Below are positions 23,695 to 40,805 of a DNA stretch of 64,000 bases, one piece after another. The notes below the pieces were generated by a model. The model did no database searches, was not told the origin of the DNA, and saw only the letters and a program-made list of their open reading frames with translations. This DNA is from Vibrio coralliilyticus. Its GTDB lineage: Bacteria; Pseudomonadota; Gammaproteobacteria; Enterobacterales; Vibrionaceae. Position 1 is the first letter of the stretch. Each line of letters begins with the position of its first letter. The translations under genes were made by a program, and so were the position numbers. The stretch is taken from NCBI RefSeq assembly GCF_024449095.1, contig NZ_CP024628.1:1475035-1539034 (forward strand), read 5' to 3'.

Positions 23695-25302
<1,608 letters not shown>

Positions 25303-25330
25303 TTATCTCCTCAAAAACTACTACCAACCA

Positions 25331-25621
25331 TTACTCAACAATTGCTAACACATCAGACTCGGACAAAATCAAATACTCTTGCCCATCAATTTTCTCGGTT
25401 TTAACACCGTAGCCATCATTGAAGATGATCTGATCACCAGTCTTGATATCCATCGACGCACGATCACCATTTTCTAGACGTTTACCCAATCCAACAGCAA
25501 TCACTTTGCCTCGGTTAGATTTCTTGACCGACTGGGAAGTAAGTACAATCCCACCTTCAGATTTATTTTCGACCTCTTGCCGTTCAACAAGTAACTTGTC
25601 ATTTAAAGGACGAATTTTCAT
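25331..25621 (-). CDS. groS: Co-chaperonin GroES
   Basis: 96 residues: [28 protein letters not shown] (mobile loop), [14 protein letters not shown], and [12 protein letters not shown]. It forms the heptameric lid of GroEL. The start at 25621 is fixed by an excellent AGGAGGTG 8 nt upstream and by family length; the frame extends upstream but without homology. First gene of the groES-groEL2 operon. Confidence 0.95.
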
Positions 25622-25710
25622 ATTGAAACACCTCCTATATTGAATACAAAAATAAAACAGGTTAAGACAATTGACTGAAACAACGAGCCTTTGACTCGCT
25701 TTCGGTAAAA

Positions 25711-25740
25711 TAAATAAGGTCACTAGATACGACTTCAAGG
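25711..25740 (-). promoter_or_regulatory. Candidate sigma-32 promoter of groES-groEL2
   Basis: On the minus strand CTTGAAG, 13 nt, then CCTTATTTA, resembling the heat-shock pattern CTTGAAA-N13-CCCCATNT in the -35 box and partly in the -10. It would give a leader of about 80 nt. The rest of the 328-bp spacer 25622-25949 shows no gene. Confidence 0.5.
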
Positions 25741-25949
25741 GCTATTTTTAATAAAAAATTTTTATCGTCATAATAAATATTATCTATTAACCACAGCCCT
25801 TCAGTTAAAAAGGATGATTTACCTAAACACAATACAATCAATGATGGCATATTTAGAAAAGCGAGAATAAGTTCAGAAGAAAGGGATTGAGCAGAAGGAT
25901 ATTAACGCGCATAGGCGACAATAAGTGCCGCCTGTAACGCTTCAAAATT

Positions 25950-26159
25950 TTAACTTCTCATACCATGTTGAGTAGTTCTAGGACAGTAAGTAGCAGAAGC
26001 ATAAGGCGGATATCTAAGTTCTGGTTGTATCCTAAAGTGAGGTTTGTTGTCTGAAGTACCAAACACTTCAAATGTACAGTCACCTATTTCATGCCTTGGG
26101 CAAACCTGTACACCATTTCTTAATATCATTTCAGTTTTACAAGATGGGCAAATATTCAT
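25950..26159 (-). CDS. Small zinc-ribbon protein
   Basis: 69 residues with CPSC at 4-7 and CPRHEIGDC around 20-28, a likely four-Cys (or Cys3His) zinc site reminiscent of topoisomerase-type ribbons. The remainder is polar and ends QHGMRS. A strong AAGGAGG precedes the ATG at 26159. It lies directly downstream of hsp20 in the same direction, with a strong hairpin between, and so may be partly co-expressed in heat shock. Function unknown. Confidence 0.6.
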   Translation of the reverse strand: MNICPSCKTEMILRNGVQVCPRHEIGDCTFEVFGTSDNKPHFRIQPELRYPPYASATYCPRTTQHGMRS

Positions 26160-26200
26160 CCTTTCCTCCTTGCAAACATCATATGTTTTACACAGACTCT

Positions 26201-26232
26201 AATTTGGGCTGTGCACTAGCACAGCCCAAATT
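26201..26232. terminator. Strong hairpin between hsp20 and the zinc-ribbon gene
   Basis: Perfect 14-bp stem AATTTGGGCTGTGC / GCACAGCCCAAATT with a 4-nt loop, 5 nt after the hsp20 stop. There is no long T-run; probably an attenuator or mRNA 3'-end stabiliser. Confidence 0.6.
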
Positions 26233-26236
26233 ACGG

Positions 26237-26695
26237 TCATTTCTTATGTTCAATGACATTATTATCATGTGACTGAATCTCAATACGTTTCGGCTTCATC
26301 GCCTCCGGTATTTCTTTTTTGAGATATACAGCCAGCAAACCATCTTTCATGGTAGCATCGGTCACTTCTACATACTCAGCTAGGTTAAAGCGTCGTTCAA
26401 ATGAACGATTAGCAATGCCTTGATAAAGCATTTTGCTTTGATCATCATCCTTGGAAGATTCTTTATTCCCTTTGATAGTCAGCAAACCATTTTCTACCTG
26501 AATATCGATATCGTCCTGAGAAAAACCAGCAACGGCAAGTGTGATGCTGTATTCGCCCTCACCCAACATTTCGATATTGTATGGAGGGTAACCGCTAGGG
26601 ATTGGATCAGAAGTTAGTGCGCTGTTAAGCAATGAAGCGACTCGATCAAAGCCAATCGTTGTGCGGTATAGTGGGGTAAGATCAATTGAGTTCAT
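26237..26695 (-). CDS. Small heat-shock protein Hsp20 (IbpA/B type)
   Basis: 152 residues: an N-terminal arm beginning MNSIDLTPLYRTTIGFDRV, an alpha-crystallin domain (about 38-130; YNIEMLGEGEYSITLAVAGFSQDDIDI, SFERRFNLAEYVEV, GLLAVYLKKEIPE) and a short tail. Binds unfolding proteins as an ATP-independent holdase together with GroEL and DnaK. It has a heat-shock-like -35 box upstream and a leader in which the ribosome site can pair with a UUGCU element. Confidence 0.93.
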   Translation of the reverse strand: MNSIDLTPLYRTTIGFDRVASLLNSALTSDPIPSGYPPYNIEMLGEGEYSITLAVAGFSQDDIDIQVENGLLTIKGNKESSKDDDQSKMLYQGIANRSFERRFNLAEYVEVTDATMKDGLLAVYLKKEIPEAMKPKRIEIQSHDNNVIEHKK

Positions 26696-26888: not shown

Positions 26889-27914
26889 CTAAGTAGTAAG
26901 CTGCGGACGACTTACTTTACTTAAAATAACATTGATAAGTACCAGCAGCGGCCCTCCCATCAGCATTCCCATCGCTCCCCATAACCATCCCCAAAAGACT
27001 AACCACACAAACAAAATTAGGGGGTTTAAACTAAATCTTTTACCAAGTAGAGTCGGTGTCGCCAATTGACTCTCTATAAGATTGATTGCCAAAAAGAGCG
27101 AAGCAACCGTCAATGAGTAACTTAGAGACTCAAACTGCAAAAAGGAAACCAAGGCAAAACAGGTCACTGAAACCATTGGCCCAAGATAAGGGATATAGTT
27201 CATCAAGCCAGCAAATGCTCCCCACAGAAACGGGTCTTTTAATCCCATCATGTAGAATACACAGCCAACAACCACTCCTAAGCACACATTGATGATCGTA
27301 ATAGAGCTTATATATCGAGAAAGATCGGTTTGAACCACCTTCACCAGCTCAACCACCTTGCGTTTATCGGAAAATCGTGTGAACAAAGATAAGCTTTGAG
27401 AATATATCTGCCGTCCATAACTCATCATGAAGTACGCCATAAAAAGCGCGACCATTAATTGTGTGACTATCGTTGGAGTTGTAGTGAGTACTGATTTAAT
27501 GATGGAAAATGAGGTATTGCTTGTGAGCCCATCATTAGCCACTGTGCTACCGAGAGTGAAGTCACCCTTGTCACCTAACTCACTACTTTCAGCCGCTTCA
27601 CTGACTTCATTAGAAACATTCTGAATTAACATTGGCAGCTTAGACCACCATTGCTGAGCGGGCTCACTTAACAGATTTAAACTCAAAACAATGAAGCTAA
27701 CGAGCCCTAATAAAACAGCAATAACATTAATGACACGAGGAATGCCAAAACGCACTAATCGATTGACTAAGGGGCCACATAGAAGAGAAATAAAAGCGCC
27801 AAAAAAAACGGGTAACAAAAACGGTTTGGCAACATGTAATATGAAAATGAACATTATTATAAGAGCAATGGTCATTAAACTATATTCTAATATATTCTCT
27901 TGTTTAACGTTCAT
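26889..27914 (-). CDS. AI-2E/PerM-family permease
   Basis: 341 residues with about seven to eight membrane helices. Diagnostic features are LLPVFFGAFISLLCGPLVNRLVRFGIPRV near the N-terminus, GLKDPFLWGAFAGLMNYIPYLGPMVS and the C-terminal TPTLLGKRFSLNPLILFVWLVFWGWLWGAMGMLMGGPLLV. Family members are implicated in autoinducer-2 export or Na+/H+ antiport, so the substrate cannot be read from sequence. It lies downstream of the YqjK/E/D-like genes in the same direction, after a large hairpin, and probably shares their sigma-54 promoter. Confidence 0.88.
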   Translation of the reverse strand: MNVKQENILEYSLMTIALIIMFIFILHVAKPFLLPVFFGAFISLLCGPLVNRLVRFGIPRVINVIAVLLGLVSFIVLSLNLLSEPAQQWWSKLPMLIQNVSNEVSEAAESSELGDKGDFTLGSTVANDGLTSNTSFSIIKSVLTTTPTIVTQLMVALFMAYFMMSYGRQIYSQSLSLFTRFSDKRKVVELVKVVQTDLSRYISSITIINVCLGVVVGCVFYMMGLKDPFLWGAFAGLMNYIPYLGPMVSVTCFALVSFLQFESLSYSLTVASLFLAINLIESQLATPTLLGKRFSLNPLILFVWLVFWGWLWGAMGMLMGGPLLVLINVILSKVSRPQLTT

Positions 27915-27938
27915 TATGTTCCTCAGATATTAAGATCC

Positions 27939-28001
27939 GGTTCTGGCTTAGTCACACTATACTTAATAGTGAATAACTACATTGATAACTAAGCCAGAAC
28001 C
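27939..28001. repeat. Long inverted repeat between the yqjK-like and permease genes
   Basis: Perfect 13-bp arms GGTTCTGGCTTAG / CTAAGCCAGAACC separated by 37 nt that contain a second hairpin CACTAT / ATAGTG. It lies 6 nt after the yqjK-like stop and 24 nt before the permease start. Likely an attenuator or processing signal inside the operon; no T-tract. Confidence 0.6.
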
Positions 28002-28007
28002 TATTAA

Positions 28008-28259
28008 TTATTTATCAAGTGAATGAATTAATAGACGTGCTTGCTTATAACCATAAAAAAGCGTCCTGAGATTTTTGACTTTGCTAAGGACGAACATGCC
28101 GAGCGCAGCGAACCCTGCCGCATGAAATGGGGATTGCTGTACAAAGCTTTTTCCTTTGAAGTAGAGCAGCCCTAAGCTGAGTGCAACTTGACGAGCTTTA
28201 CTATCACACTCAAGCCTTTTCATTAGAATTTTCCGCTGTCGTTTTTTCATTGATCGCAT
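28008..28259 (-). CDS. YqjK-like small membrane-associated protein
   Basis: About 83 residues: a very basic N-terminus (MRSMKKRQRKILMKRL), a helical segment, then a hydrophobic stretch HAAGFAALGMFVLSKVKNLRTLFYGYKQA. Size, basic start and position after YqjD- and YqjE-like genes match enterobacterial yqjK. The start at 28259 follows GGGAGG but overlaps the yqjE-like gene by 50 nt; the ATG at 28223 would reduce the overlap to 14 nt. Confidence 0.6.
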   Translation of the reverse strand: MRSMKKRQRKILMKRLECDSKARQVALSLGLLYFKGKSFVQQSPFHAAGFAALGMFVLSKVKNLRTLFYGYKQARLLIHSLDK

Positions 28260-28686
28260 GACACAACCTCCCAAGCTGCTCTTTGGTATATTCAAAACCC
28301 ACAAATTGCTTGTAATATCGGCTGCCGAGTATCAAAAGCATAAGGATAACGCTGAACGCTGCAATGAAAGCGCTATAACCGACTAAAAGGTTCAAAGTAA
28401 AGTAGTACCCCATAACCCCAACACCGACGGCGATGCTAATAAGAAACATCGGCAGCAATGCAACGAAGAGGAGTTTAATGACAATGAGTTTTTTACTCGC
28501 GGCAACCGTGTTACGCAACTCCAAAGAAAACAACTCAAAAATCGACATTGACCATTGTTGAGTGTGAGACTGGAATACGGTTAGGTCTTTTAAAAGCCCT
28601 CTCAGTTGAACGATCGCTCGTTCTAAAAGCTCCTCTTCGCGATGTTGAGGCTCATTGTGTGCGTCGTTGATATTATTAGACTGCAT
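28210..28686 (-). CDS. YqjE-like phage-holin-family membrane protein
   Basis: 158 residues. An N-terminal cytoplasmic helical part with acidic stretches is followed by two hydrophobic helices (VIKLLFVALLPMFLISIAVGVGVMGYYF and GYSAFIAAFSVILMLLILGSRYY), the plan of holin superfamily III/YqjE. E. coli homologues sit with YqjD at the membrane and are stationary-phase/stress induced. A good AGAGGAAAG ribosome site precedes 28686. Confidence 0.75.
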   Translation of the reverse strand: MQSNNINDAHNEPQHREEELLERAIVQLRGLLKDLTVFQSHTQQWSMSIFELFSLELRNTVAASKKLIVIKLLFVALLPMFLISIAVGVGVMGYYFTLNLLVGYSAFIAAFSVILMLLILGSRYYKQFVGFEYTKEQLGRLCHAINEKTTAENSNEKA

Positions 28687-28714
28687 AACTTTCCTCTTCG
28701 TGCATCATTCAGGC

Positions 28715-28963
28715 TTATTTGATTAGCTTAGAAATAGCCCAGCCTGCAATAAAGGCGCATCCAACGCTCAAGAGTGGGCGCTCTTTAATCATGTTTTCAG
28801 CTTGCTCTGTTTTGTTTTTTACAGTTTCAGACCCTGCTTCGAGCGTGTCTTGAACGGTATTTTTCACATTTTCTATTGCTTCTGAAGCAACCCCTTCTGC
28901 CATTTCATAAATCTCTTCGGCCTGCTGCTTAGAATCAGTTTTTTTAGTATTTGCATTTGGCAT
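28715..28963 (-). CDS. DUF883 YqjD/ElaB-type membrane-anchored protein
   Basis: About 82 residues: a long amphipathic helix (about 10-60, rich in Glu, Lys and Ala) and a single C-terminal membrane segment ERPLLSVGCAFIAGWAISKLIK, the hallmark of YqjD/ElaB, which bind ribosomes and tether them to the inner membrane in stationary phase. The start at 28963 (MPNANTKK) is preferred because of AAGGAG 8 nt upstream. First gene of the yqjD-yqjE-yqjK-permease unit behind a sigma-54 element. Confidence 0.82.
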   Translation of the reverse strand: MPNANTKKTDSKQQAEEIYEMAEGVASEAIENVKNTVQDTLEAGSETVKNKTEQAENMIKERPLLSVGCAFIAGWAISKLIK

Positions 28964-29041
28964 ACATAATCTCCTTAACTTATCCAATGAGAGAAAATAA
29001 AGTGATCATTCAAAATTACTATCACTTCTTACACTAAGATA

Positions 29042-29058
29042 AGCGAACATCATGCCAA
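29042..29058 (-). promoter_or_regulatory. Sigma-54 promoter of the yqjD-like operon
   Basis: Minus strand TTGGCATGATGTTCGCT: the -24 GG and -12 GC are exactly 10 nt apart and the -24 box is TTGGCA. Predicted start near 29031, about 70 nt before the ATG at 28963. Confidence 0.7.
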
Positions 29059-29214
29059 CTTTAAAATAGCTTGTCGCATATGGTATTAGAGAGCTTTTCG
29101 GTAATAAAAAGAGTGCTATTCATGTAATATTTTCACTCATTTTCCATGAGGATTGTACCTTTTACAAAATTACATTTCTTTCTTCCATAATCTAGGGCTT
29201 AGTGGCGATTTTAT

Positions 29215-29231
29215 TTGGCACGTAACATGCT
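29215..29231 (+). promoter_or_regulatory. Sigma-54 promoter of the DUF2383 operon
   Basis: TTGGCACGTAACATGCT, one mismatch to TTGGCACG-N4-TTGCT, with the required 10-nt GG-GC spacing. Predicted start near 29242, 25 nt before the ATG at 29267. Confidence 0.78.
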
Positions 29232-29266
29232 TTACTTCTATTACGAACAAATCTAAATGAGGCACT

Positions 29267-29689
29267 ATGAAAAATAAAAGCATTTCATCTGTTATAAGTT
29301 TAATAGAAAGTGGGAATATTATTTATGAAAAAGCGATATCTAATGTAGATAATAAAGATATAAAAAGAAGTCTTTTTGATATATATGCGATTAAGAAGTG
29401 TGCTGAGTTAAAACTAAAGTCGCTCTCAAAACCTTCAAAACCGCACAAGCTTATTCCAGACAGCTACACCATTAATGCTCGACGATATTGCATTGAAGCA
29501 GAGGAAGAGAGAGGAAGTGCAAATGACAGCCTCTATCTGGAACATTTGTCGGGCATAGAAGAAAAAACCATTGACGACATAGCAATACTATCAAAACAAG
29601 CGCCAGAATTGAGACAAAAAATAACAACAATTAAGAGAGAAGTAGAAATGTGTCGTCATAAAATCAATGACTTACGGTCAATGGAATGA
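29267..29689 (+). CDS. DUF2383 (PA2169-like) four-helix protein
   Basis: 140 residues, almost entirely helical, with the DUF2383 opening (SVISLIESGNIIYEKAISNVDNKDIKRSLFDIYAIKKCAELKLKSL). This is a ferritin-like four-helix-bundle family linked with stress genes in Pseudomonas. Strong metal-binding signatures are not obvious. The ATG follows TGAGG. It is transcribed from the sigma-54 element 35-50 nt upstream and probably co-transcribed with the next gene. Confidence 0.72.
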   Translation: MKNKSISSVISLIESGNIIYEKAISNVDNKDIKRSLFDIYAIKKCAELKLKSLSKPSKPHKLIPDSYTINARRYCIEAEEERGSANDSLYLEHLSGIEEKTIDDIAILSKQAPELRQKITTIKREVEMCRHKINDLRSME

Positions 29690-29746
29690 ACAGTCAAATC
29701 TTACACAGGTATGGAAAACACGGTTAAGACAAGAAGGAGTAACAAT

Positions 29747-30157
29747 ATGTGGGTGGAAAATCACAATAGAACTCTCGATGCAACGCACCATAAAAGCATA
29801 GATAGAATATTATTCGCTCTTAAAGAGCATTATCAATCATGCCGTCAGCTCGTTGAATACAGGACGCACCAAACTCTCTCTAGAGCCGCGAGTCGTTTTT
29901 TAAAAGTAGAGCGTTCGATGATCAATGAAATCAAGATTAAAGTCCTTGATTTCAAAACAGAAAACAATCATTCAATGCAAGAAAGCCAGTCCGTTGTGAT
30001 TAGCAGCTACGACGAGATGTATCAAAGCAATCGACAATTAATCACCTATTTGAAAAGTGCGATTGGAACATTTAACAACCAAAAGCTGTCATCATTCTTT
30101 TCTTACTGGGTTGCCGCATTACAAGTGGAAAATGACGAAATGGCGAAGCATTTATAG
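29747..30157 (+). CDS. Helical protein of unknown function, operon partner of DUF2383
   Basis: 136 residues, all-helical and cysteine-poor, with HHKSIDRILFALKEHYQSCRQLVEYRTHQTLSRAASRFLKVERSM, suggesting a second bundle protein, possibly ferritin-like. The start at 29747 (MWVENHNRT) is chosen because AAGGAG lies 8 nt upstream; the frame also runs back to 29711. A strong bidirectional terminator follows, closing the two-gene unit. Confidence 0.6.
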   Translation: MWVENHNRTLDATHHKSIDRILFALKEHYQSCRQLVEYRTHQTLSRAASRFLKVERSMINEIKIKVLDFKTENNHSMQESQSVVISSYDEMYQSNRQLITYLKSAIGTFNNQKLSSFFSYWVAALQVENDEMAKHL

Positions 30158-30206
30158 TTTAGTTCGATATTATCCACTTCTAGGCGAACAGGCGATCAGC
30201 TGTAAT

Positions 30207-30241
30207 AAAAAAGCGTCAAGCAAATAGGCTTGACGCTTTTT
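30207..30241. terminator. Strong bidirectional intrinsic terminator
   Basis: Perfect stem AAAAAGCGTCAAGC / GCTTGACGCTTTTT with a 6-nt loop; A-tract and T-tract on either side make it functional for the DUF2383 unit and possibly for the opposing barrel gene. Confidence 0.9.
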
Positions 30242-30381
30242 ATTACTATTACTTTTCTTCATGCAAAAAACAGGGTACGAGTTTTTCTTTTGATTATAAA
30301 CCATCAAAGTATGCTCCACCCTGCTATAAAACACATCAAGAGCCTAACACCATTTTATTAAACTCGGTCTTGTGAACCGAA

Positions 30382-30945
30382 TTAGAATCGATATTCCACA
30401 CCTAATGATGCTTGGTTAAAATCTGTTTCTGTGCTTGCACCATTCGTAACGTTCTCTGCATTGAGTTCTACGTCGTACCACATATATTCAGCATTGATTA
30501 AGAATTGATCTGTCACTTTGAAACCCACACCGGCACCAGCGAATACACCTTCGTCTTCTTTACTGCCCCCGAAGCCCGCAATATTGTAGTCTGTCGTATA
30601 CCACATTTGACCACCTTTTGCGTAAAGATCAACACGCTCAGCAATAGGAGCTATAACTTTTAGAGCAGCGGTATAACCGTCTGTTTCGGTATTAGCTAAG
30701 TTATTACCATAGCTACCAAAATCAATATACCCCCCTTCTAATGCTAAGTAAGAGTTAAAGCGGTAACCGATTAAGCCTTGAATAGCATCGCTGTCATCAT
30801 CAAAGTCATCTTGCCCATCAACTTTCAAATAACCATAGTTGGCACCCACATAAACGCCATGCTCGTTGGAGTCCGCAGCGTGTGAAAAAGTACTAAAGGT
30901 TGCTAAAGAAAAAAGGCTAATCAAAGTAACAACATTGCTTTTCAT
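30382..30945 (-). CDS. OmpA-like/OmpW-like outer-membrane beta-barrel protein
   Basis: 187 residues: signal peptide (cleavage after TFSHA), then alternating amphipathic strands (GVYVGANYGYLKVDG, AIQGLIGYRFNSYLALEGGYIDFGSYG, VDLYAKGGQMWYTTDYN) ending in the C-terminal Phe (LGVEYRF) required for barrel insertion. It has the eight-stranded OmpA transmembrane-domain plan with no peptidoglycan-binding domain. It is transcribed from a sigma-54 element about 50 nt upstream, unusual for a porin-like gene. Confidence 0.85.
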   Translation of the reverse strand: MKSNVVTLISLFSLATFSTFSHAADSNEHGVYVGANYGYLKVDGQDDFDDDSDAIQGLIGYRFNSYLALEGGYIDFGSYGNNLANTETDGYTAALKVIAPIAERVDLYAKGGQMWYTTDYNIAGFGGSKEDEGVFAGAGVGFKVTDQFLINAEYMWYDVELNAENVTNGASTETDFNQASLGVEYRF

Positions 30946-30990
30946 TTCGTTCTCCTAATATAAGTTTCATTGAAATATCGATTTATATAG

Positions 30991-31007
30991 AGCAAAAGAA
31001 ATGCCAA
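30991..31007 (-). promoter_or_regulatory. Sigma-54 promoter of the beta-barrel gene
   Basis: Minus strand TTGGCATTTCTTTTGCT with correct 10-nt GG-GC spacing and a perfect TTGCT -12 box. Predicted start near 30980, 35 nt before the ATG. Confidence 0.75.
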
Positions 31008-31368
31008 CTTTAAAAACCATTTAAAACATACTAAAAATAACATAACATTAACATAACTAGGTTGAACACCGAATAAAAGAACAAAATTTAGTCTATTTAT
31101 TACCTTATAAAAACATTTTTAAATTAAGTTAAATAAACGTCGTGAAAAATATTCTCGTTGTTATGTAACTTTTTCAAAAAATAATAAACATAGATTTTCT
31201 AAACTCGATTCAAAACCATCTATTATTTAGTGAAATTTTAAAAAAGATGTGATGACTCTAATGACCAGTTAAGGTGAGAATATGAAAGCAAAAAGCTATT
31301 AGTCGTTTTTTAGGGGGGCTATGTTGCCCAAAGGGTTTATTATGGATAATCATCAATCACCCATTGCA

Positions 31369-31430
31369 AAGTACCCTCAGATGAAACGTTCACAACACAG
31401 GTGTTTGCATGGTTTCATCTGAGGGTACTT
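31369..31430. repeat. Perfect 19-bp inverted repeat with nested hairpin
   Basis: AAGTACCCTCAGATGAAAC at 31369-31387 is exactly complementary to 31412-31430. The 24-nt loop contains a further AACAC / GTGTT stem. There is no T-tract, so it is not an ordinary terminator. It could be a small structured RNA, a protein-binding palindrome or a relic of a mobile element. Confidence 0.75.
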
Positions 31431-31583
31431 AATCGAATGAATTGAGTACTGCCGAAAACCGGAAAGCCATCGCTTAACATCACAAGCACTGAAAATCAGG
31501 GTGATGGCAATGGCTTGGCTCAAACTGAGGTTAACAATCACAAGCAAACACCGTTAGCACCATAAGAGGCCGGGTGACGTCTG

Positions 31584-32498
31584 CTACATCTTAGCGACAT
31601 TATCCGCCACTATGCTTGATAGGCTTTCTCCTCCTTTTGCCTCAAAGTCCAGTGTTCGAATAGGAAACGGAATCGTGATACCAGCATCCGACAACGATTC
31701 CTTAATCGCGACAATGCTGTCATTTTGTGCTTCCATGTAACCAAAGTCGCCAGGGTAATCAATCCAAAACCATACCAGCAAATTGATACTACTGTCGGCG
31801 AAACTGGCAGCATGAACCGCTGTGTCTTCGGGGTTACTCACATAAGGTTTTTGATTAATAGCTTCTGTTATTACTTTGGTCGCTAAATTAGGACAGTCCG
31901 CGTATGAGATACCGACAGGAATTTCTATTTTTCTGAGACCTTTTCGACTGTAGTTCGTCAATATGTTACGAAAAACCATTTTATTTGGAATCATGACGTG
32001 CTGACCTGAAAACGTCTCTACAAGAGTATTGCGCAAATTAATTTGAATAACTTGCCCCATAACGCTGTTGGATTCGACAATATCGCCTATTTTAAATGGC
32101 TTGCGGATACTCATCGTGATCCCTGAAATCAGGTTTTCGGTCATATCTTGAAAAGCAAAACCAATAGCAAGCCCCAAAATACCCGCCCCTGCTAGGAGTG
32201 ATGTAACCGTACCTTGCAATCCAACAAAGTCTAACGCGACAAAAAAACCAACGGTTATAATGATCACTTTAACAATCGATGCTAATAAGTTGGTCGCTTC
32301 CTTTGAATCTACGACTCGGTTGCTCAAGTTCCTAAATAATCGGCCGCCCAGGTTGGCGATAAAGATAAAAGCAAACAACGTAAAGAGCGCAACAATAAGA
32401 TTAGGAATCAACTTGATGGTTTCAACAAGCCAATGCTCCAGCTTTTGCTCAATTAAATGGTTAAATTTCTCAATGTCGAAAGAGAGATTCATCTCCAT
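31584..32498 (-). CDS. MscS-family small-conductance mechanosensitive channel
   Basis: About 304 residues, typical MscS length. Three membrane helices precede the pore-lining Gly/Ala helix (VTSLLAGAGILGLAIGFAFQDMTENLISGI), then the cytoplasmic vestibule (FKIGDIVESNSVMGQVIQINLRNTLVETFSGQHVMIPNKMVFRNILTNYS). It releases solutes on hypo-osmotic shock. The ATG at 32498 (MEMNLSFD) is preferred because AAGGA lies 7 nt upstream; the frame also offers 32513. It lies 41 nt downstream of the phosphatase-kinase fusion in the same direction. Confidence 0.9.
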   Translation of the reverse strand: MEMNLSFDIEKFNHLIEQKLEHWLVETIKLIPNLIVALFTLFAFIFIANLGGRLFRNLSNRVVDSKEATNLLASIVKVIIITVGFFVALDFVGLQGTVTSLLAGAGILGLAIGFAFQDMTENLISGITMSIRKPFKIGDIVESNSVMGQVIQINLRNTLVETFSGQHVMIPNKMVFRNILTNYSRKGLRKIEIPVGISYADCPNLATKVITEAINQKPYVSNPEDTAVHAASFADSSINLLVWFWIDYPGDFGYMEAQNDSIVAIKESLSDAGITIPFPIRTLDFEAKGGESLSSIVADNVAKM

Positions 32499-32538
32499 GG
32501 TGATGTCCTTCATTCATGATTGGTGCTGTCATCAGTGA

Positions 32539-34152
32539 CTATGGAATGCAAACAGATAAAGCTTGGCTTTTGATGCTTATCTCAAGTGATTCAGCGGAGA
32601 ACTTTTCTCCATCAATGACATAGTGTATCGGTCGATTTGAGTCTATTTTGACTTGCTTTGCAGACTCATAGTCAAAAAATGAGGCTTGTTCTTTGAGGCC
32701 TAAGCTTGAAAGCAACACATCAGACAGCGCTAAAGCTCTTTCCCCAAGCGAAGCGGTATTTTCTAAATAGGTAATATGCAATTGACCATCATCAGGTTTT
32801 GGCTCTTTACCTCCTTGAGCAAGGACCGTACTGAAAGGCGACGTGTTGGCAACCACTAAGCTTTGTAATTCAGCTTCTCGTGCTGGCTCCCCATCCTTAG
32901 TGACTTCAAACCACTGACTTTCTCCTGCCACAACCGCAGAAAATAAACCCGATAAGTAAGCAAGTTGGCCATTTTTATTTTTCTGTTCACGATGCGCGTA
33001 ATCAATCATCTTCTCTTCAAACCCAATACCAAGAATAAGCAGTATTGGCTGGTCGTTACAGTACGCCAAATCCATTTTCTTAGACTTGCCGGATAGAATA
33101 GCCTCGCAGGCCTTTTCAACAGGCGACACTTTTGTCGCAAAACCATAGAGCACATGACATAAAGCATTTGCCGTACCCAATGGGATAATCCCGAGTGCCG
33201 TGTCTGTCCCCACGATTTGTCTTGCCACCTCGCTGACGGTGCCATCTCCGCCAGAGACGATGATATGAGAAGCATTTCGCGCTTTTGCTTGTTTGGCTAG
33301 AGATTCCGCTGATACTTCTTTACTGGTGGTCACTATGTCTAAATTGAACTTTCGGGTGAGCTCTCGAATAACCTGTTGCTCACTCGTTTGCCATTTGCCT
33401 CCACCTGCAACAGGGTTAGCAATGAGGCAGCATTTGTCTTCAAGATTGAGCAGTCCCTTATCACTGATAGCATTCAGCACCTTTAGTTGCTTTTTGTTCA
33501 ACTGCGCAGTGCTTCTTACATCATTGATATTTTTGAGCACTTGCTCCACGCTCAGAGATGGATTTTTCGCTAACAGGTATGCTGCAACCACAAACACAGA
33601 GCGGCCACGGCCAAGTGCACAATGAACAACTACGGACCTTGATTGGCTTATCTGAGTATCTATCCAATTAAGAGCATGTTTAAGCTTGCGTAACTTAGGG
33701 GCTTGATGGTCGAGTACCGGGGTATTGAGGTAATGAAACTCTTCGCTGGTCATCGCACTCTCTAAACCCGAAAATTCTGCGGTGACATCAACAATGCACG
33801 TTATGTTTTGAGATTGTAGAAATGACAAATCGGAGGGGAGTAGACGTCGAGAAACATATAAACCTTCTCCCACCCGCTGAATGGGATCGACTTTATCTCT
33901 TTTAATAGCCCAAGTATTGTATAAACGAATGCCTAGAAAAAAAGGAATAAACGCCCACCGGATCCACCAAGCTATTTTGCCATCACTATTTTTTCTAAAT
34001 ATGGATGGCATCTCGAAGATATAGGCGGCACTAACAATAGACATCGATAACCCTGACCAAACCAATAGTAAGCTGAATAATACATTGGGAACAAATGCTG
34101 CTATAGAAAAACAAGCGATAGCAATGAGTATATAGTACTTAACGATAAACAT
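32539..34152 (-). CDS. Membrane-anchored dual-specificity phosphatase fused to diacylglycerol/lipid kinase
   Basis: 537 residues in three parts: two N-terminal membrane segments (about 1-50 and a shorter one near 65-75); a dual-specificity phosphatase domain (about 90-225) with the signature HCALGRGRS (Cys at about 178, CX5R); and a DAGKc-type lipid kinase domain (about 240-535) with IANPVAGGGK, SGGDGTVSEVA and LGIIPLGTANALCHVL. Such fusions may couple lipid phosphorylation and dephosphorylation in membrane remodelling; the substrate is inferred only. It begins 35 nt beyond the hemerythrin terminator. Confidence 0.85.
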   Translation of the reverse strand: MFIVKYYILIAIACFSIAAFVPNVLFSLLLVWSGLSMSIVSAAYIFEMPSIFRKNSDGKIAWWIRWAFIPFFLGIRLYNTWAIKRDKVDPIQRVGEGLYVSRRLLPSDLSFLQSQNITCIVDVTAEFSGLESAMTSEEFHYLNTPVLDHQAPKLRKLKHALNWIDTQISQSRSVVVHCALGRGRSVFVVAAYLLAKNPSLSVEQVLKNINDVRSTAQLNKKQLKVLNAISDKGLLNLEDKCCLIANPVAGGGKWQTSEQQVIRELTRKFNLDIVTTSKEVSAESLAKQAKARNASHIIVSGGDGTVSEVARQIVGTDTALGIIPLGTANALCHVLYGFATKVSPVEKACEAILSGKSKKMDLAYCNDQPILLILGIGFEEKMIDYAHREQKNKNGQLAYLSGLFSAVVAGESQWFEVTKDGEPAREAELQSLVVANTSPFSTVLAQGGKEPKPDDGQLHITYLENTASLGERALALSDVLLSSLGLKEQASFFDYESAKQVKIDSNRPIHYVIDGEKFSAESLEISIKSQALSVCIP

Positions 34153-34180
34153 AGTGAGGCCTTAATTTCTCTGTGTATTA

Positions 34181-34205
34181 AAAAAGCGGGCCCATAAATG
34201 GGCCC
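34181..34205 (-). terminator. Intrinsic terminator after the hemerythrin gene
   Basis: On the minus strand the stem GGGCCCAT / ATGGGCCC (2-nt centre) is followed by GCTTTTTTAATAC. It ends the BON-to-hemerythrin unit, although read-through into the phosphatase-kinase gene is likely because only a short spacer follows. Confidence 0.8.
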
Positions 34206-34259
34206 AAGTTGTTAAACCAAAACCTACGCTTCACTATCAAGCTTAGGTGACACTTCGAA

Positions 34260-34688
34260 TCAAGCCATCTCTTGCTCATATTTTCGAGCCAAAGTTTCTT
34301 TCTGATCTGAGTCTAAAACTCGTCCAGCCGTTTGAAAGAAACGCTGCTCTTCTTCTTCTAAATGATGCTCTACTTTGTGTTTGAGTGTCTTCATCAGTGT
34401 GAGCCAAGCTGGTGAAGACATTTCGGTGTCATCAAGCTGAGCAAGCACCTTATCAATACCGTGGTGTTCAGCGATACCGTGCCTAGTCATATCAACGGAT
34501 TGATCGCTCTCTATTAAAGGTGCATAGAAGTGGCGTTCTTCCGCGACCGCATGCTTAGTTAATTCTTCTTTAAGACTGGAGTAGAATTCTTGCCTAGCCT
34601 GAGTATCACCTGATGTTTGGAGTATCGCATCCATCAAAAGCCGTTGCTTCTCATGGCTATCTTTAAGCACATCAAATATGTTTTTCAT
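34260..34688 (-). CDS. Hemerythrin HHE-domain protein
   Basis: About 142 residues. The HHE cation-binding pattern is visible as DSHEKQR, LTKHAVAEERHFYAPL, HGIAEHHGIDKVL and LKHKVEHHLEEEEQRFF, giving the His and Glu ligands of a di-iron centre that can bind O2 or NO or sense redox state. The start at 34688 (MKNIFDVLKDSHE) was chosen for AGGAG 7 nt upstream; the frame runs back to 34706. Last gene before the terminator. Confidence 0.88.
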   Translation of the reverse strand: MKNIFDVLKDSHEKQRLLMDAILQTSGDTQARQEFYSSLKEELTKHAVAEERHFYAPLIESDQSVDMTRHGIAEHHGIDKVLAQLDDTEMSSPAWLTLMKTLKHKVEHHLEEEEQRFFQTAGRVLDSDQKETLARKYEQEMA

Positions 34689-34754
34689 ATCTAGCTCCTG
34701 CTTCAATTCTTTTTATGAGGTTCGGATGATTAATTCGTGAGTTAATGCCTTTTG

Positions 34755-34952
34755 TTAGCAGTCTTGATCTTCCGTACCAAGTTGCTCTTTCACGTTCTCA
34801 CAGCCGTCCTCTATCTGATTTTGAGCTTCCTCTACCGCTTCGTCAGCTCTTTCACCAGCTTGCTCTAGGGGGCCGTCGTCACTACATGCGGCAAGCGTAA
34901 AAGCAAAACCTGTTGCCAATAGGAAACGGAAAATAACTGTGCTTATATTCAT
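34755..34952 (-). CDS. Small lipoprotein
   Basis: 65 residues: a lipoprotein signal with lipobox TLAACSDD, then an acidic helix (LEQAGERADEAVEEAQNQIEDGCENVKEQLG) ending EDQDC. It resembles short stress-induced lipoproteins of the Lpp or entericidin type in size and plan, but no family assignment is possible. Ribosome site TAGGAG. Middle gene of the BON-DUF1328-lipoprotein-hemerythrin unit. Confidence 0.65.
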   Translation of the reverse strand: MNISTVIFRFLLATGFAFTLAACSDDGPLEQAGERADEAVEEAQNQIEDGCENVKEQLGTEDQDC

Positions 34953-34960
34953 AAAAACTC

Positions 34961-35131
34961 CTAACTCTTATCTTTGTTAACTAAACTCATTACCACCGAT
35001 ACAAGCAACGAAATAGCAAATATATAAAACATAACTTTAGCTACTGTTGCTGCAGCGCCTGCTATACCACCAAATCCAAATAAAGCTGCTATGATGGCAA
35101 GAATAAAAAATATTAAAGCCCAGCGAAGCAT
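34961..35131 (-). CDS. DUF1328 (YtjA-like) two-helix membrane protein
   Basis: 56 residues ([21 protein letters not shown], then [20 protein letters not shown] and a short polar tail). This is the characteristic DUF1328/YtjA pattern of two short membrane helices joined by a Gly-rich turn. It fits exactly between the lipoprotein (8 nt) and the BON gene (32 nt), all on the minus strand. DUF1328 genes are commonly found among general-stress genes. Ribosome site is weak (AGAGAG). Confidence 0.85.
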
Positions 35132-35163
35132 AATGTTCTCTCTTATATCTGTTGGTAAATTTA

Positions 35164-35715
35164 TTATTGAATTACTTCAAGTTTATCAATGACTTTATCA
35201 ACATCGGATGTATTACGAGCAATAGATAGCGCAAGGTCATGTTCTGTATCTGACGTCACCGAACCCTTTAATACCACAGTGTTTTCTTTAGTTTCCACTT
35301 CGATATCAGTACCACTGACTCCCGTATTCATTAATAGTCGAGTCTTAACAATGGCCGTTATTTTGGTATCCGTTAAGACTTGGGTTGATTCCTTATTTTT
35401 ATCTTTTTCATTATCGATGACCGTAAGTTCATTCTTTACCGACTTAACATCATCAAGGCTTAATACTAATTCTTCAGCAAGGGCTTTTTCTGTCTGGTTT
35501 TCAACTGAGCCCGTTAAAGTTACAACCTGGTCTTTAACATAAGTGTTAATATCAAAAGAGTTCAAATTGGAATTAAGTAATAGTGTCGTTTCTGCTTTAC
35601 CGTCAATCCAAGCATCTAGCGTATCTTCTTTCCACATGCTATCTGCAACCGCTGCAGAAGAAGAAGTAGCGATAACCGTTGTTAGTAGAATTTTACTTGC
35701 AATGTTTTTCATCAT
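35164..35715 (-). CDS. Periplasmic protein with two BON domains (OsmY-like)
   Basis: 183 residues: signal peptide (cleavage near AAVA-DS), then two BON domains, about 40-100 ([49 protein letters not shown]) and about 115-183 (same pattern ending [12 protein letters not shown]). BON proteins such as OsmY bind phospholipids or act as periplasmic chaperones under osmotic stress. First gene of a minus-strand stress unit with a sigma-54 promoter only ~35 nt upstream. ATG at 35715 or 35712 possible. Confidence 0.88.
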
Positions 35716-35748
35716 TTATCTCCTTTTTTGTACTTGCATTACCATTAG

Positions 35749-35765
35749 AGCAAACTGCATGCCAA
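35749..35765 (-). promoter_or_regulatory. Sigma-54 promoter of the BON operon
   Basis: Minus strand TTGGCATGCAGTTTGCT, one mismatch to the consensus, with 10-nt GG-GC spacing. Predicted start near 35738, 23 nt before the ATG. The remaining spacer up to 36051 is AT-rich and holds the promoter of the divergent activator gene. Confidence 0.78.
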
Positions 35766-36051
35766 AAATACAAACCATTGAATTAAAAGGAGTTATATGA
35801 AGAACTAAAAATAATATTAATATTTCCGATGATGGAGAATGAATAATTTACAAGGAGTATTTGTAAAAAATATAAATATTTATCTCGTCCGAGTTAGTGA
35901 CACACCATAATATTATTGCCCGATTTTTATCTATCATTTTAAATATAAAATCATTATTATTCACAAAAAACGCGAAAGAAAAGCCATACATTCTCTTTCC
36001 TTATGCCTCGTGCTATCATCTCTCTCACTACTGTTGAAAGAGAGTTAAATC

Positions 36052-37392
36052 ATGGCATTACCAACACTGTTCGTAGAATTAAAAGATCAGAAATTATTGT
36101 CTCAAATAAGCTCTCTGGAAGAGTTGTCACGATTTGACACGATTAGCAATAATGACAACGAACACTGGATAGATAGCCTACAACGACTTCAACCCAATGC
36201 CGCTATTGTTGAAGTATCTCAATTCACCAACGATGATTTTGTCGCCCTATCCAGTGCCACAGGCTTGGAAGAATTGGATTTGGTCATCATCGGCTCCGGT
36301 GCACCCAATAAGAATTTAGACATGATGATGAAAAGCGGCGCCATTTTTCATTATAGAAAGCCAGTTGATATCCAAATTTTGGCCGATACTCTAGCGGACT
36401 TTAGTCAATACTTCCTAGAAAAGCAGGAAGAGGGGAAAAAAATATCCACAAGCGACTTGGACCAGTTTGGAATGTTAGTCGGCTCCTCAAGGCCAATGCA
36501 TAACTTGTATCGCACCCTCAGACGAGTGGCGAAAACAGAGGCCAACGTATTGATCATTGGTGAAAGCGGTGCTGGTAAAGAGCTCGTCGCGCAGACTATC
36601 CACCTTGCCAGTGATAGAAAGGAGCAGCCTTTTATTGCCATTAACTGCGGCGCCATCAGCCCAGAATTAGTCGACAGTGAACTCTTTGGTCATGAAAAAG
36701 GCGCATTTACAGGCGCTAACCGAACGCACCAAGGTGTTTTTAAGCAAGCAGAGGGCGGGACATTATTTCTTGATGAGGTCACCGAAATGCCCCTTGAACA
36801 TCAAGTTAAACTACTGCGAGTACTTGAAACAGGCGAGTATCGCCCAGTCGGCAGTAACACACTCTGTATTGCCAACACCCGTATCATCGCCGCCACAAAC
36901 CGTGATCCACAAGTGGCTATTGAAGAGCAATTTTTACGAGAAGACCTCTATTTTAGATTAGCTCACTTCCCTATCAATATTCCCCCTCTCAGAGAACGAG
37001 GTAATGATATTGTCGGCCTTGCTAAACATTTCATCGCTCACCGGAATGCGAATGAAGCCGCTCCAAAAGCGATTACAGCCTCAGCGCTAGAAAAAATCGC
37101 AGCGCATACATGGCCTGGCAATGTTAGAGAATTAAAACACTGTGTCGAGCGAGCGTTCATTTTGGCGGACGATACGATTAAAGATGAACACCTCATTTTT
37201 GATACTCCTCCTTTAGAAACCGGGACAACATTAGAGGAGAGAGTACCAGCTGGTGTGACTCTAGAAGAAATAGAAAAGGCCGCTATTATTAACACTCTTG
37301 AAGAAAATGAAGGCAACAAAAAAGAAACCGCAGAGGACTTAGGAATAAGCATAAAAACGCTCTACAACAAGCTGGATAAGTATCAGAGTTAA
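36052..37392 (+). CDS. Sigma-54-dependent activator with pseudo-receiver domain
   Basis: 446 residues: an N-terminal receiver-like domain (about 1-120) in which Glu54 (AAIVEVS) stands where the phospho-acceptor Asp belongs, while the conserved Lys (HYRKPVD) is kept; a central AAA+ domain with Walker A GESGAGKE, the sigma-54 contact loop GAFTGAN and Walker B GGTLFLDE; and a C-terminal Fis-type helix-turn-helix (NKKETAEDLGISIKTLYNKLDKY). It activates sigma-54 RNA polymerase from upstream sites. The missing Asp suggests constitutive or ligand-controlled activity. No kinase gene is adjacent. It is divergent from the BON operon, one of four units with sigma-54 promoters nearby. Confidence 0.9.
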   Translation: MALPTLFVELKDQKLLSQISSLEELSRFDTISNNDNEHWIDSLQRLQPNAAIVEVSQFTNDDFVALSSATGLEELDLVIIGSGAPNKNLDMMMKSGAIFHYRKPVDIQILADTLADFSQYFLEKQEEGKKISTSDLDQFGMLVGSSRPMHNLYRTLRRVAKTEANVLIIGESGAGKELVAQTIHLASDRKEQPFIAINCGAISPELVDSELFGHEKGAFTGANRTHQGVFKQAEGGTLFLDEVTEMPLEHQVKLLRVLETGEYRPVGSNTLCIANTRIIAATNRDPQVAIEEQFLREDLYFRLAHFPINIPPLRERGNDIVGLAKHFIAHRNANEAAPKAITASALEKIAAHTWPGNVRELKHCVERAFILADDTIKDEHLIFDTPPLETGTTLEERVPAGVTLEEIEKAAIINTLEENEGNKKETAEDLGISIKTLYNKLDKYQS

Positions 37393-37453: not shown

Positions 37454-39115
37454 TTACTCACTGACTGCAGCCGTCACCTTCATTATATCAGTGATTGGCT
37501 CAGGCTTATGAATGTAGTATCCCTGTGCAAAATGCACTCCTATATCTGATAGACACTGATAAATGGCTTTATTTTCCACAAATTCTGCCACCGTTTTTAA
37601 GCCCATCGCTTGGCCTATTTCATGGATAGATTTCACCATTTGGTAGCTGATCTTGTCATGCTCAATATCTCGGACAAATGAACCATCAATTTTGACCGTA
37701 TCTAAGGGAAGCTCTTTTAAATAGGTGAATGACGAAAGGCCTGTGCCAAAGTCATCCAGTGAAAACTGGAAGCCAAGAGCTCGTAATGAGTGCATCACTT
37801 CTATTGTGCCATGAAAATCACGCATCGCAGCAGTTTCAGTGACCTCAAAGATAATACAGCGAGGGTTAAATACGTAACGGTTGAGCATCTTATTGACAAA
37901 ATCGACCAGACTATAGTCCGAAATGGTCTGTCCCGACAAATTGACTGAATAGGTTCGATCACTGCGGCTTCCCATCGAACTAAACAGGGCAGTCATCACA
38001 TAGCGATCAATATCCGGCATCATATGATAACGTTCAGCGATAGGCAGAAAAGCATAAGGAGAGATAACTTCCCCTTGTTCGTTTTTCAGACGCAACAGTA
38101 CCTCATAGTAAAAAGGCACAGTGTTATCTGAAATGGGCGAGATTTTTTGGCAATATAAAACAAATCTTTCTTCTTGGATGGCTTTGTTTATCTCTTCTAT
38201 CCACTTCACCCCCCGAATATAACTTTCAAACTCATCATTTTTCGCGTCAATGATATGAGTACGATTGCGGCCATGGTCTTTCGCTGCCTTACATGCCGTA
38301 TTAGCAATACTCAGTAGCTTAGTGAGCTCAGGGGCGGCGTTAGTATAGAAAGGGGCAACACCACTCGATACCGTTATTCTGACCGAGTTCTCATCCAAGT
38401 TAAAAGCATAGGCGTCAATATGCTTTCTAACGTCATCGGCGAAGCCTTGCGCTTCGTGTACCGTATAGTCATCAAGTAACACGGCAAATTGGTCGCCCCC
38501 TATACGAGCAATAGGCTGACCTTTTGATGTTCGGCTTTTAAGGATATTGGCAATTTTGCATAACACTTCATCACCCAGAGAATGACCAAAAGAGTCATTG
38601 ATGGTTTTAAAATTATCAATATCAAAAAAAGCCAGCGCTGCATTCTGATGGAGGTGATTGGTTTGACTGACCAGTTCCAAAAACTGTGTTTCAAAAAACT
38701 GTCGGTTGTTCAACTGCGTCAACATATCATTATTTTCTCGATACAGCAGAGCGGTTTCATCGCTTATTTCACTAATAACAATCAGTACGCCTTTGAGCAT
38801 GCTATAACACTGTATATTCAGACTTTGTCCATCAACAACGACGTTTCTAACTTCCAGTTCACTATGCTTACCACTCAGGAGTAATCGATCAATTTTATCT
38901 CTTACATCTGGAACATCTGCAAGCAAGCTATAGTAATGACGATCCAAGAAGTCTTTGGGGCTCTTATTCTCTAGCCCGAGTAAGCTCAGCGCTGCCGTAT
39001 TTACTAAGTTAACTTCACCAGATTCAGAAAAAGTGATCAAGCCATTAGGTATTGCTCCAACAATACCAGACATGAGCTCAAGTAACGTAGCGGTTTGTTT
39101 TGATGGGTTAGGCAT
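37454..39115 (-). CDS. PAS-GGDEF-EAL cyclic-di-GMP protein
   Basis: 553 residues: a PAS-like sensor (about 10-115), a GGDEF domain (about 130-290) whose signature reads RIGGDQF, with Gln replacing the Glu of GGDEF, and an EAL domain (about 305-550). The EAL motifs are YYEVLLRLKN, SVNLSGQ, FEVTETAA, LDDFGTGLSS, VKIDGSFV and AEFVEN, so metal and catalytic residues look largely intact. I infer a phosphodiesterase with a regulatory GGDEF domain. The start overlaps the preceding gene by 8 nt, making it the output gene of the partner-switching module. Confidence 0.88.
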   Translation of the reverse strand: MPNPSKQTATLLELMSGIVGAIPNGLITFSESGEVNLVNTAALSLLGLENKSPKDFLDRHYYSLLADVPDVRDKIDRLLLSGKHSELEVRNVVVDGQSLNIQCYSMLKGVLIVISEISDETALLYRENNDMLTQLNNRQFFETQFLELVSQTNHLHQNAALAFFDIDNFKTINDSFGHSLGDEVLCKIANILKSRTSKGQPIARIGGDQFAVLLDDYTVHEAQGFADDVRKHIDAYAFNLDENSVRITVSSGVAPFYTNAAPELTKLLSIANTACKAAKDHGRNRTHIIDAKNDEFESYIRGVKWIEEINKAIQEERFVLYCQKISPISDNTVPFYYEVLLRLKNEQGEVISPYAFLPIAERYHMMPDIDRYVMTALFSSMGSRSDRTYSVNLSGQTISDYSLVDFVNKMLNRYVFNPRCIIFEVTETAAMRDFHGTIEVMHSLRALGFQFSLDDFGTGLSSFTYLKELPLDTVKIDGSFVRDIEHDKISYQMVKSIHEIGQAMGLKTVAEFVENKAIYQCLSDIGVHFAQGYYIHKPEPITDIMKVTAAVSE

Positions 39116-40130: not shown

Positions 40131-40560
40131 TACTACGAGTAAGGGCCGTCGGTACCAGATCGTAACCAGATTTTTGGATGCAAAACTTCGTTGCCGCTTT
40201 TAAATCTCGTACTATCAGATGGCGGCCTAAAGCAACACCAGCGTTGGCCATGGTTCTTGCGATGACGCCTCTCAAGCCACAGAACACGGGCTTCGCCCCA
40301 ACTAAAACCATAGTATCAGCCGCACGAACAAGCTGTGACGCTACCGATGTGTCTATTGCATCGACATTGGACAGGTCTATAACAACAAAGTCGCTGTTTG
40401 ATGACTCAACCATATCCGTCAGCTTAGCAGTAATCGCTTCCATCCGAGCTGAGTCTATCGTTCCAAATAACCCCGTATAAATACAGCTATCAAACACTTC
40501 AGAGGCCACCATGGGGGACTCACCACCTAACTGTTTACGACTAATGGCTATGTTATCCAT
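40117..40560 (-). CDS. STAS-domain protein, RsbS-like
   Basis: 147 residues. The STAS core reads DFVVIDLSNVDAIDTSVASQLVRAADTMVLVGAKPVFCGLRGVIARTMANAGVALG; the IDTSVA segment carries the Ser/Thr that RsbT-type kinases phosphorylate, and the GLRG...A motif is typical of stressosome RsbS/RsbR proteins. The start at 40560 (MDNIAISRK) follows TAGGAG; an upstream extension of the frame to 40644 has no homology. First gene of the module; no RsbR sensor protein is encoded nearby. Confidence 0.8.
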   Translation of the reverse strand: MDNIAISRKQLGGESPMVASEVFDSCIYTGLFGTIDSARMEAITAKLTDMVESSNSDFVVIDLSNVDAIDTSVASQLVRAADTMVLVGAKPVFCGLRGVIARTMANAGVALGRHLIVRDLKAATKFCIQKSGYDLVPTALTRSNEEY

Positions 40561-40805
40561 AACATTTCTCCTATCAACTGACCTGTGACTGCTATTCCTG
40601 ATAGCCTCGGAGATCCAAATGACTCTCAGCCTATCTGGATACACAACTTAACTTGGGAAATTTAATTCCCTACTTCTAAAGTAGCGCAAATAACCCCATA
40701 GGCAATATGTTTTATAAAACATTGAGGAATCAAAAGAGGAGGCAGTCAAATCGGCCTCAGAGATAATATCGGACACCACTGCGATAAAAACTGCGATGAT
40801 AATAG

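Follow-up and report, generated by a model that had tools for sequence, protein, structure and literature searches.

A candidate locus-specific sigma-54 regulon with paired 13-bp activator sites in Vibrio coralliilyticus

A window of 64,000 nucleotides of Vibrio coralliilyticus (NZ_CP024628.1, positions 1,475,035 to 1,539,034), which forms the end of contig C2 in a genome of 5.02 Mb on three contigs, contains a block of about 10 kb in which the gene of a sigma-54 enhancer-binding protein (EBP) is accompanied by genes for membrane, periplasmic and iron proteins. We consider it very likely that this block is a locus-specific sigma-54 regulon, in which the EBP would act on paired 13-bp sites and drive the BON, yqjD-like, DUF2383 and outer-membrane protein (OMP) units together. 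A first-pass annotation of the same DNA had proposed one dedicated activator for a set of genes at a single locus, and this proposal is favoured, as far as sequence goes, by the co-occurrence of the EBP and BON genes, by conserved sigma-54 sites and by site pairs that lie almost only at these promoters.

Sigma-54 promoters and paired candidate activator sites

Four -24/-12 elements with GG-N10-GC spacing in a TTGGCAY...TTGCW context are present in the block at the coordinates and in the orientations first proposed. They are the four best scores of the 64-kb window with both matrices used, namely an approximate sigma-54 matrix based on the literature (approximate matrix) and a matrix of 15 Vibrio parahaemolyticus RpoN sites taken from Table 2 of PMC9817140, from which 7 merely predicted sites were excluded (Vibrio matrix):

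29042..29058, minus strand: sigma-54 promoter of the yqjD-like operon (14.9 bits approximate matrix, 18.2 bits Vibrio matrix)
29215..29231, plus strand: sigma-54 promoter of the DUF2383 unit (16.8 bits approximate matrix, 18.1 bits Vibrio matrix)
30991..31007, minus strand: sigma-54 promoter of the OMP gene (15.1 bits approximate matrix, 18.6 bits Vibrio matrix)
35749..35765, minus strand: sigma-54 promoter of the BON operon, the best in the window (17.6 bits approximate matrix, 21.0 bits Vibrio matrix)

The next-best scores in the window were 14.2 (approximate matrix, inside a gene) and 14.5 (Vibrio matrix). All four promoters are intergenic, falling within the 1,914 intergenic bp of the block, and each points at a gene; the chance of all four falling within this intergenic DNA is roughly 8e-7 if independence is assumed. 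Their predicted starts lie 68, 25, 35 and 23 nt before the ATG, in agreement with the earlier expectation of 20-70 nt before the first gene of each unit. The genome has one rpoN match, and a generic sigma-70 scan gave 16 sites, fewer than the 27.7 in shuffled sequences. A loose sigma-54 consensus with two mismatches allowed was set aside as uninformative (42 matches, 40 expected). This lack of excess, together with the sharing of sequence by descent among close relatives, would fit an explanation in which the sites are not functional promoters and owe their conservation to chance or to inherited AT-rich sequence. Such an explanation appears extremely improbable, however, considering the scores obtained with strict matrices, the conservation of the elements within diverged intergenic DNA and the independent pair of sites at the OMP gene described below.

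A candidate for a common upstream activator motif, for which the first-pass annotation had suggested a search, was found as a 13-bp palindrome, TGTAA-N3-TTACA. All four promoters have two tandem copies of it upstream, with spacings of 21, 22 or 31 bp:

29123..29166 (29123-29135 and 29154-29166), no strand assigned: candidate activator-site pair common to the divergent yqjD-like and DUF2383 promoters, 31 bp apart
31143..31176 (31143-31155 and 31164-31176), no strand assigned: candidate activator-site pair of OMP, 21 bp apart, centres at -169 and -190
35840..35874 (35840-35852 and 35862-35874), no strand assigned: candidate activator-site pair of BON, 22 bp start to start, centres at -108 and -130 from the predicted BON start

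The palindrome was first recognised by comparing intergenic regions, including those of yqjD. A 37-bp motif derived from the BON activator region alone was rejected as too specific, since on both strands of the window it matched only the BON site. A symmetric matrix of the 13-bp unit (consensus TGTAATAATTACA) was trained on 64 units from 17 loci, with the window and every OMP region left out, and its three best matches in the window are at 29123, 35840 and 31164, one per promoter-bearing intergenic region, with a second unit 31, 22 and 21 bp away, respectively. Three pairs are present in the window, all of them at the four promoters. No pair occurred in 20 Markov sequences of 64 kb each, and 200 random sets with AT-rich intergenic composition, each about 950 bp long, gave three. 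No pair was detected in 53 other loci of the same genome (171,951 bp, mostly picked for holding a single unit), and a wider control of 112 loci (474,335 bp) yielded one, in locus L084. The wider control was badly drawn: it repeated 52 loci of the first one and took in three from another Vibrionaceae genus (L083, L084 and L087), two of which, L083 and L084, are part of the EBP loci L166 and L167.

For comparison with relatives, the EBP N-terminal domain and BON were searched in a sampled set of 148 Vibrio genomes, and 34 regions were fetched and annotated against the genes of the window. A sigma-54 site of at least 13.1 bits is present upstream of BON in 27/27 loci tabulated, including an EBP-less copy (L151); for yqjD, all 22 loci have an upstream site of 13.6 bits or more. 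Before the rightward (DUF2383) unit, a site of at least 12.5 bits was found in 20 of 23 loci, the exceptions being L050, L052 and L165; in L052 a 15.1-bit site overlaps the annotated start of this unit. Pairs at threshold were detected in 23/27 BON regions and in all 22 intergenic regions of loci that keep yqjD, counts that are partly circular because 17 of these loci were used for training. An independent confirmation of the pair rule comes from the window's OMP pair, since no OMP region and no sequence of the window entered the training, and the pair of L167, from another genus, likewise stands outside the circularity. In the window, the pairs at BON and yqjD lack this independence, because their orthologues support them.

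The promoter and its paired sites are near-constant in geometry in 23 of the 27 loci: there the centre of the proximal BON unit falls between -107 and -110 relative to the predicted start, and the distal unit lies near -130. For yqjD the units lie at about -97 and -128, shifting to -86/-87 and -117/-118 in L050-L052, and the steps from -108 to -97 and on to -87 come near to whole turns of the helix. The distance of the proximal unit drifts more for the rightward unit (-82 to -121), and in L165 the pair of the yqjD region is more than 200 bp from the yqjD promoter. These arrangements bear on the question of whether the pairs might bind some other regulator, such as a repressor or a nucleoid protein, instead of the EBP. 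The motif is AT-rich, the BON regions of L053, L054, L164 and L166 deviate from the rule, and binding of the EBP to the pairs is only predicted; a different regulator nevertheless seems improbable, given the fixed distance to the sigma-54 start, the helical spacings of the pairs, a 5-3-5 layout as in the LuxO sites described in PMC3352281, and the finding of no candidate pair in the EBP-less control loci examined.

Within the core pattern of the unit, TGTAANNNWTWCA, the regulon appears to be confined to its locus. This pattern, the form of the unit to which the genome-wide search was directed, has 45 matches in the genome (41 places), 3 of the places being in the window and 38 outside. All 38 were read, and none (0/38) holds a pair. 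At two of them, L176 and L191, a sigma-54 site of at least 12 bits occurs at a plausible distance. L176 is inside a reading frame. L191 (G000:C2:256774) has a 19.1-bit sigma-54 site with a predicted start 52 nt before the ATG and a lone 13-bp unit upstream, and its gene is read, from sequence, as that of the hybrid cluster protein (hcp). A palindrome that we take to be NorR-like lies closer than the 13-bp unit, so that L191 was not counted as an EBP target and is probably a NorR target.

The activator and its distribution in relatives

The activator gene stands at the end of the block, divergent from BON:

36052..37392, plus strand: EBP with a pseudo-receiver, an AAA+ domain with GAFTGA and a Fis-type helix-turn-helix (HTH) (PF00158, 226 bits; PF02954, 57 bits)

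It had been proposed as the only sigma-54 activator in the window, and a six-frame motif scan indeed found the combination of Walker A and GAFTGA in this protein alone. Walker A, GAFTGA and the Fis HTH are all intact, and the protein has the hallmarks of an NtrC-type EBP (AAA+ Walker A/B, GAFTGA and Fis HTH). Its score stays under the curated cut-off for each of the 25 models listed, out of 28 that matched; PspF, ZraR, NtrC and LuxO are among them. The pseudo-receiver nature of its N-terminus is borne out: residues 1-126 are predicted to adopt a (beta-alpha)5 receiver fold (pLDDT mostly 80-90, with a whole-chain pTM of only 0.46), and the phosphorylation residues are not conserved in 18 relatives. 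The position of the phospho-acceptor Asp of NtrC-type response regulators is Glu in 11 of these, Gln in 3, Asp in 3 and Gly in 1; Lys is kept at the receiver Lys position in 3/18, and the acidic residue at the end of beta-1 (position 9, E or D) also in 3/18. Invariant instead are Trp39, Gly83, Pro85, His100, Arg102 and Pro104. Because the receiver is degenerate, the EBP is probably not switched by phosphorylation, and control by a ligand, a partner protein or the level of the EBP itself is probable.

Based on established knowledge of the EBP family, dimers of the protein would bind the tandem palindromes about two or three helical turns apart, assemble into an AAA+ ring and loop to the sigma-54 RNA polymerase waiting at the -24/-12 elements. 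The BON, yqjD-like, DUF2383 and, in this strain, OMP units would be switched on jointly, and the output would consist of stress-type membrane, periplasmic, lipid-phosphate and ferritin/hemerythrin-like proteins. We infer in this way the binding of the EBP to the sites, the mechanism of induction and the role in envelope stress.

It is also conceivable that the EBP is gated by c-di-GMP in the manner of FleQ and FlrA and is linked to nearby GGDEF/EAL genes. FleQ, FlrA and VpsR chains are among its matches, a GGDEF-EAL gene follows it in the window, and EAL or GGDEF-EAL genes are near the EBP in some other loci, but these neighbours are at no conserved place. In FleQ and FlrA the arginine of the LFRS motif contacts c-di-GMP; in a HMMER alignment the FRS stretch of FleQ corresponds to FGM in the EBP, so this arginine is missing there. 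FleQ-type control is thus less likely, and we regard c-di-GMP gating as unlikely overall.

The first-pass annotation had also suggested looking in other genomes for the activator linked to such stress genes. Strong matches to the EBP N-terminal domain were found in 17 of the 148 Vibrio genomes, an 18th, weak match (G094) not being an orthologue, and strong BON matches were found in exactly the same 17, the next BON match having an E-value of 4.1e-10. The closest named relatives of the EBP are Vibrio proteins, except for one contig filed under Shewanella/Parashewanella. This 12-kb contig (L036, NZ_JAFEUN010000119.1), filed as Parashewanella hymeniacidonis, carries an activator domain 97% identical, which reflects either recent transfer or contamination. 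Among the best 120 database matches listed, EBP homologues (99-100% coverage, 58-80% identity) were from Marinomonas, Psychromonas, Shewanella, Rheinheimera, Arsukibacterium, Idiomarina and Flocculibacter. In 369 class-sampled genomes, used to look outside Vibrionaceae, a search with the full-length EBP (E 1e-110, up to 4 candidates scored per genome) recovered only its own genome, and the N-terminal profile gave 19 weak matches in addition to that genome (best E 4.6e-7).

The standard arrangement has EBP and BON oriented divergently, and the locus was found both on large replicons and on plasmids. L053 and L054 differ from it: the four-helix gene separates EBP from BON, and the kinase and lipoprotein genes, which have their own sigma-54 site, lie beyond the EBP on its opposite side. 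In L166 and L167, from another Vibrionaceae genus, the EBP, BON and kinase genes are kept at 41-47% identity. Genome G027 has its own activator and, at a different place on that contig, an EBP-less partial second copy of the island (L151, G027:C2:725000-744900), whose BON is about 98% identical to that of the window; it keeps BON, OMP and their sigma-54 sites, and its kinase gene is interrupted. Among the fetched regions OMP was present only in the window and in L151, and MscS was not found in the block of many relatives. The units that are conserved are BON, the yqjD-like gene and the DUF2383/ferritin-like pair; OMP is an occasional member, and MscS is variable.

Considering that sigma-54 promoters do not encode the identity of their activator, another EBP might activate them, with the adjacent EBP serving other genes; the EBP-less partial copy in G027 retains the promoters, and a V. 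alginolyticus copy of the EBP lies away from all these genes. This seems very improbable in view of the exact co-occurrence with BON in 17/148 genomes, the divergent adjacency of the two genes and the absence of paired sites at all 38 other core-pattern places in the genome. The gene for a dual-specificity phosphatase fused to diacylglycerol kinase (DSP-DAGK; 41-48% identity) was examined in 6 EBP-less genomes, and in none of them (0/6) does a sigma-54 site reaching 13.5 bits occur in the intergenic DNA just upstream; this is a weak control because the gene has no sigma-54 promoter of its own in the standard module either. When the 500 bp before the matched stretch were scanned in 13 remote BON homologues, a site reaching 13 bits was found in one of them (L118), where it probably falls within the reading frame.

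Genes of the block and points against the proposed regulon

Leftward from the EBP gene, one unit runs from BON through the DUF1328, lipoprotein, hemerythrin and DSP-DAGK genes to MscS, and a second comprises the YqjD-like, YqjE-like, small-protein and AI-2E family transporter genes. The rightward unit consists of the DUF2383-like and four-helix genes, and the OmpA-like barrel gene is a single-gene unit:

35164..35715, minus strand: BON-domain periplasmic protein, OsmY-like (PF04972, 113 bits)
34961..35131, minus strand: DUF1328 small membrane protein (PF07043)
34755..34952, minus strand: 65-aa lipoprotein with a lipobox and two conserved C-terminal cysteines (alignment of 15 orthologues)
34260..34691, minus strand: hemerythrin HHE-domain protein (PF01814)
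32539..34152, minus strand: DSP-DAGK fusion (PF00782 and PF00781)
31584..32513, minus strand: MscS-family channel, a variable member (PF00924)
30382..30945, minus strand: OmpA-like/OMP_b-brl barrel, an accessory member (PF13505)
29747..30157, plus strand: four-helix protein, ferritin-like fold (start picked by alignment, longer starts possible)
29267..29689, plus strand: DUF2383-like protein (PF09537, 25.8 bits, under the Pfam cut-off of 30.8)
28715..28963, minus strand: YqjD/ElaB-like tail-anchored protein (ElaB model E 0.0057, far under the cut-off)
28210..28686, minus strand: YqjE-like holin-superfamily membrane protein (PF07332)
28008..28262, minus strand: YqjK-like small protein (no Pfam match; named by position; present in relatives)
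26889..27914, minus strand: AI-2E family transporter, last gene of the yqjD unit (PF01594)

The units that the first-pass annotation had named are thus present, with some of their labels weakened: DUF883 is a weak assignment, DUF2383 is under the cut-off and OMP is not a conserved member. The match to DUF883_C was obtained for one of 16 orthologues of the yqjD-like protein (E 0.005), so that membership of the DUF883 or YqjD/ElaB families is weakly indicated. PF07332 (E up to 5) was matched by 15/15 YqjE-like orthologues (best E 6.9e-9), the protein of the window having an E-value of 0.014. The DSP-DAGK fusion is judged to be membrane-anchored from its hydrophobic N-terminus. For the four-helix protein, the predicted model (pLDDT 80.8) has its top PDB match in 4etr, PA2169 (TM 0.68, E 0.31), a DUF2383 protein; at this E-value the likeness is suggestive only, and a profile comparison of the two ferritin-like neighbours did not support their homology to each other.

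Directly after the EBP gene, at 37454-40644, are genes for a GGDEF-EAL protein, a HATPase_c_2 kinase-like protein and a STAS-type anti-anti-sigma-like protein; the HATPase_c_2 domain is N-terminal, and the same protein possibly has a phosphatase-like C-terminus. These genes were considered as a core sensing module and rejected, as they are not conserved beside the EBP in relatives. Immediately to the left of the block, at 23695-26695, are genes resembling groEL and groES and one for an HSP20 protein.

Several observations weigh against the proposed regulon. A terminator-like stem at 34187-34206, between the hemerythrin and DSP-DAGK genes, may cut DSP-DAGK and MscS off from the BON promoter, and because of it their expression may be lower than that of the first four genes of the operon; such stems are in no excess overall (8, against 8.5 in shuffled sequences). 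The single 13-bp unit is not enriched in the genome, where the reversed control of the core pattern gave 69 matches, more than the 45 of the pattern itself. L053, L054, L164 and L166 have no threshold pair at BON, which may mean that the binding rule has drifted or that the matrix is biased. L165 is without BON and has a lipoprotein gene in its place, again with a sigma-54 site, and the V. alginolyticus copy (L168, on plasmid NZ_CP099958.1) consists of an EBP without any of the usual genes or a pair; given these two loci, the link between the EBP and its targets is not absolute. The stress role would follow from the names of gene families. The orphan activator of L168 adjoins an EAL gene; it is as similar to the EBP of the window (74%) as is an activator from V. 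parahaemolyticus, found in a cluster of 881 member sequences.

Relation to known systems and meaning

No description of such a system was found in searches of the open-licence literature. In the Psp system, a divergent EBP gene lies beside a sigma-54 operon with upstream activator sites and small membrane-associated products, a layout shared, as a stress operon, by the present locus. PspF, which PspA holds in check, is without a receiver domain, whereas the EBP here has a pseudo-receiver. Contact between PspA and PspF is described in PMC6003685. The EBP reaches 272.9 bits against a cut-off of 443.55 for the PspF equivalog, and general Pfam scans, with no dedicated genome-wide search for PspA, gave no PspA-family protein among the open reading frames of the block.

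ZraR, a solved relative (1ojl), is likewise an NtrC-type activator of periplasmic and envelope genes, but it is a response regulator phosphorylated in partnership with a kinase; the EBP lacks conserved phospho-residues and scores 267.4 bits against the ZraR cut-off of 760. No kinase lies directly beside the EBP in the window; the protein with a histidine-kinase-like ATPase domain (39108-40130) is two genes away and is not conserved beside it. In other bacteria, genes of the kinds found in the block are placed under RpoS, and the Escherichia coli osmY, yqjDEK, elaB, ytjA and entericidin genes are usually RpoS-controlled. The gene families are similar, with OsmY and ElaB models matching below cut-off, but here they are gathered at a single locus that has sigma-54 promoters and an EBP of its own.

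FleQ, FlrA and VpsR share with the EBP a receiver fold without a working phosphorylation site, the AAA+ domain and the Fis HTH, and differ from it in their gene targets. VpsR is described in PMC3162934 as having become sigma-54 independent, whereas GAFTGA is intact in the EBP. The LuxO-qrr system also combines sigma-54 promoters in Vibrio with 13-bp 5-3-5 palindromic sites (TTGCA-N3-TGCAA, PMC3352281), but here the half-site sequence is different, the sites are paired and the targets are protein-coding stress genes instead of quorum RNAs.

It is possible, although we put this at somewhat less than an even chance, that marine Gammaproteobacteria have in this locus a sigma-54 stress system distinct from both Psp and Zra, in which the EBP, independently of phosphorylation, directly senses a membrane or redox signal and drives a movable island that genes such as OMP join by gaining paired sites and a sigma-54 promoter. 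The parts are of known kinds, and, as far as seen in the open-licence literature, the combination of a pseudo-receiver EBP with its own paired site and movable stress genes of the RpoS type is new. If the proposed regulon is real, activator, sites and targets of a dedicated sigma-54 stress circuit would lie in one block. The strict spacing rules would provide a clean natural set for studies of enhancer geometry, and the question of what a receiver without a phosphorylation site senses would become testable. Since BON, DUF1328, DUF2383, YqjD-like proteins and phosphatase-diacylglycerol kinase fusions are apparently needed together under one signal, the locus would also offer a functional handle on these poorly understood families.

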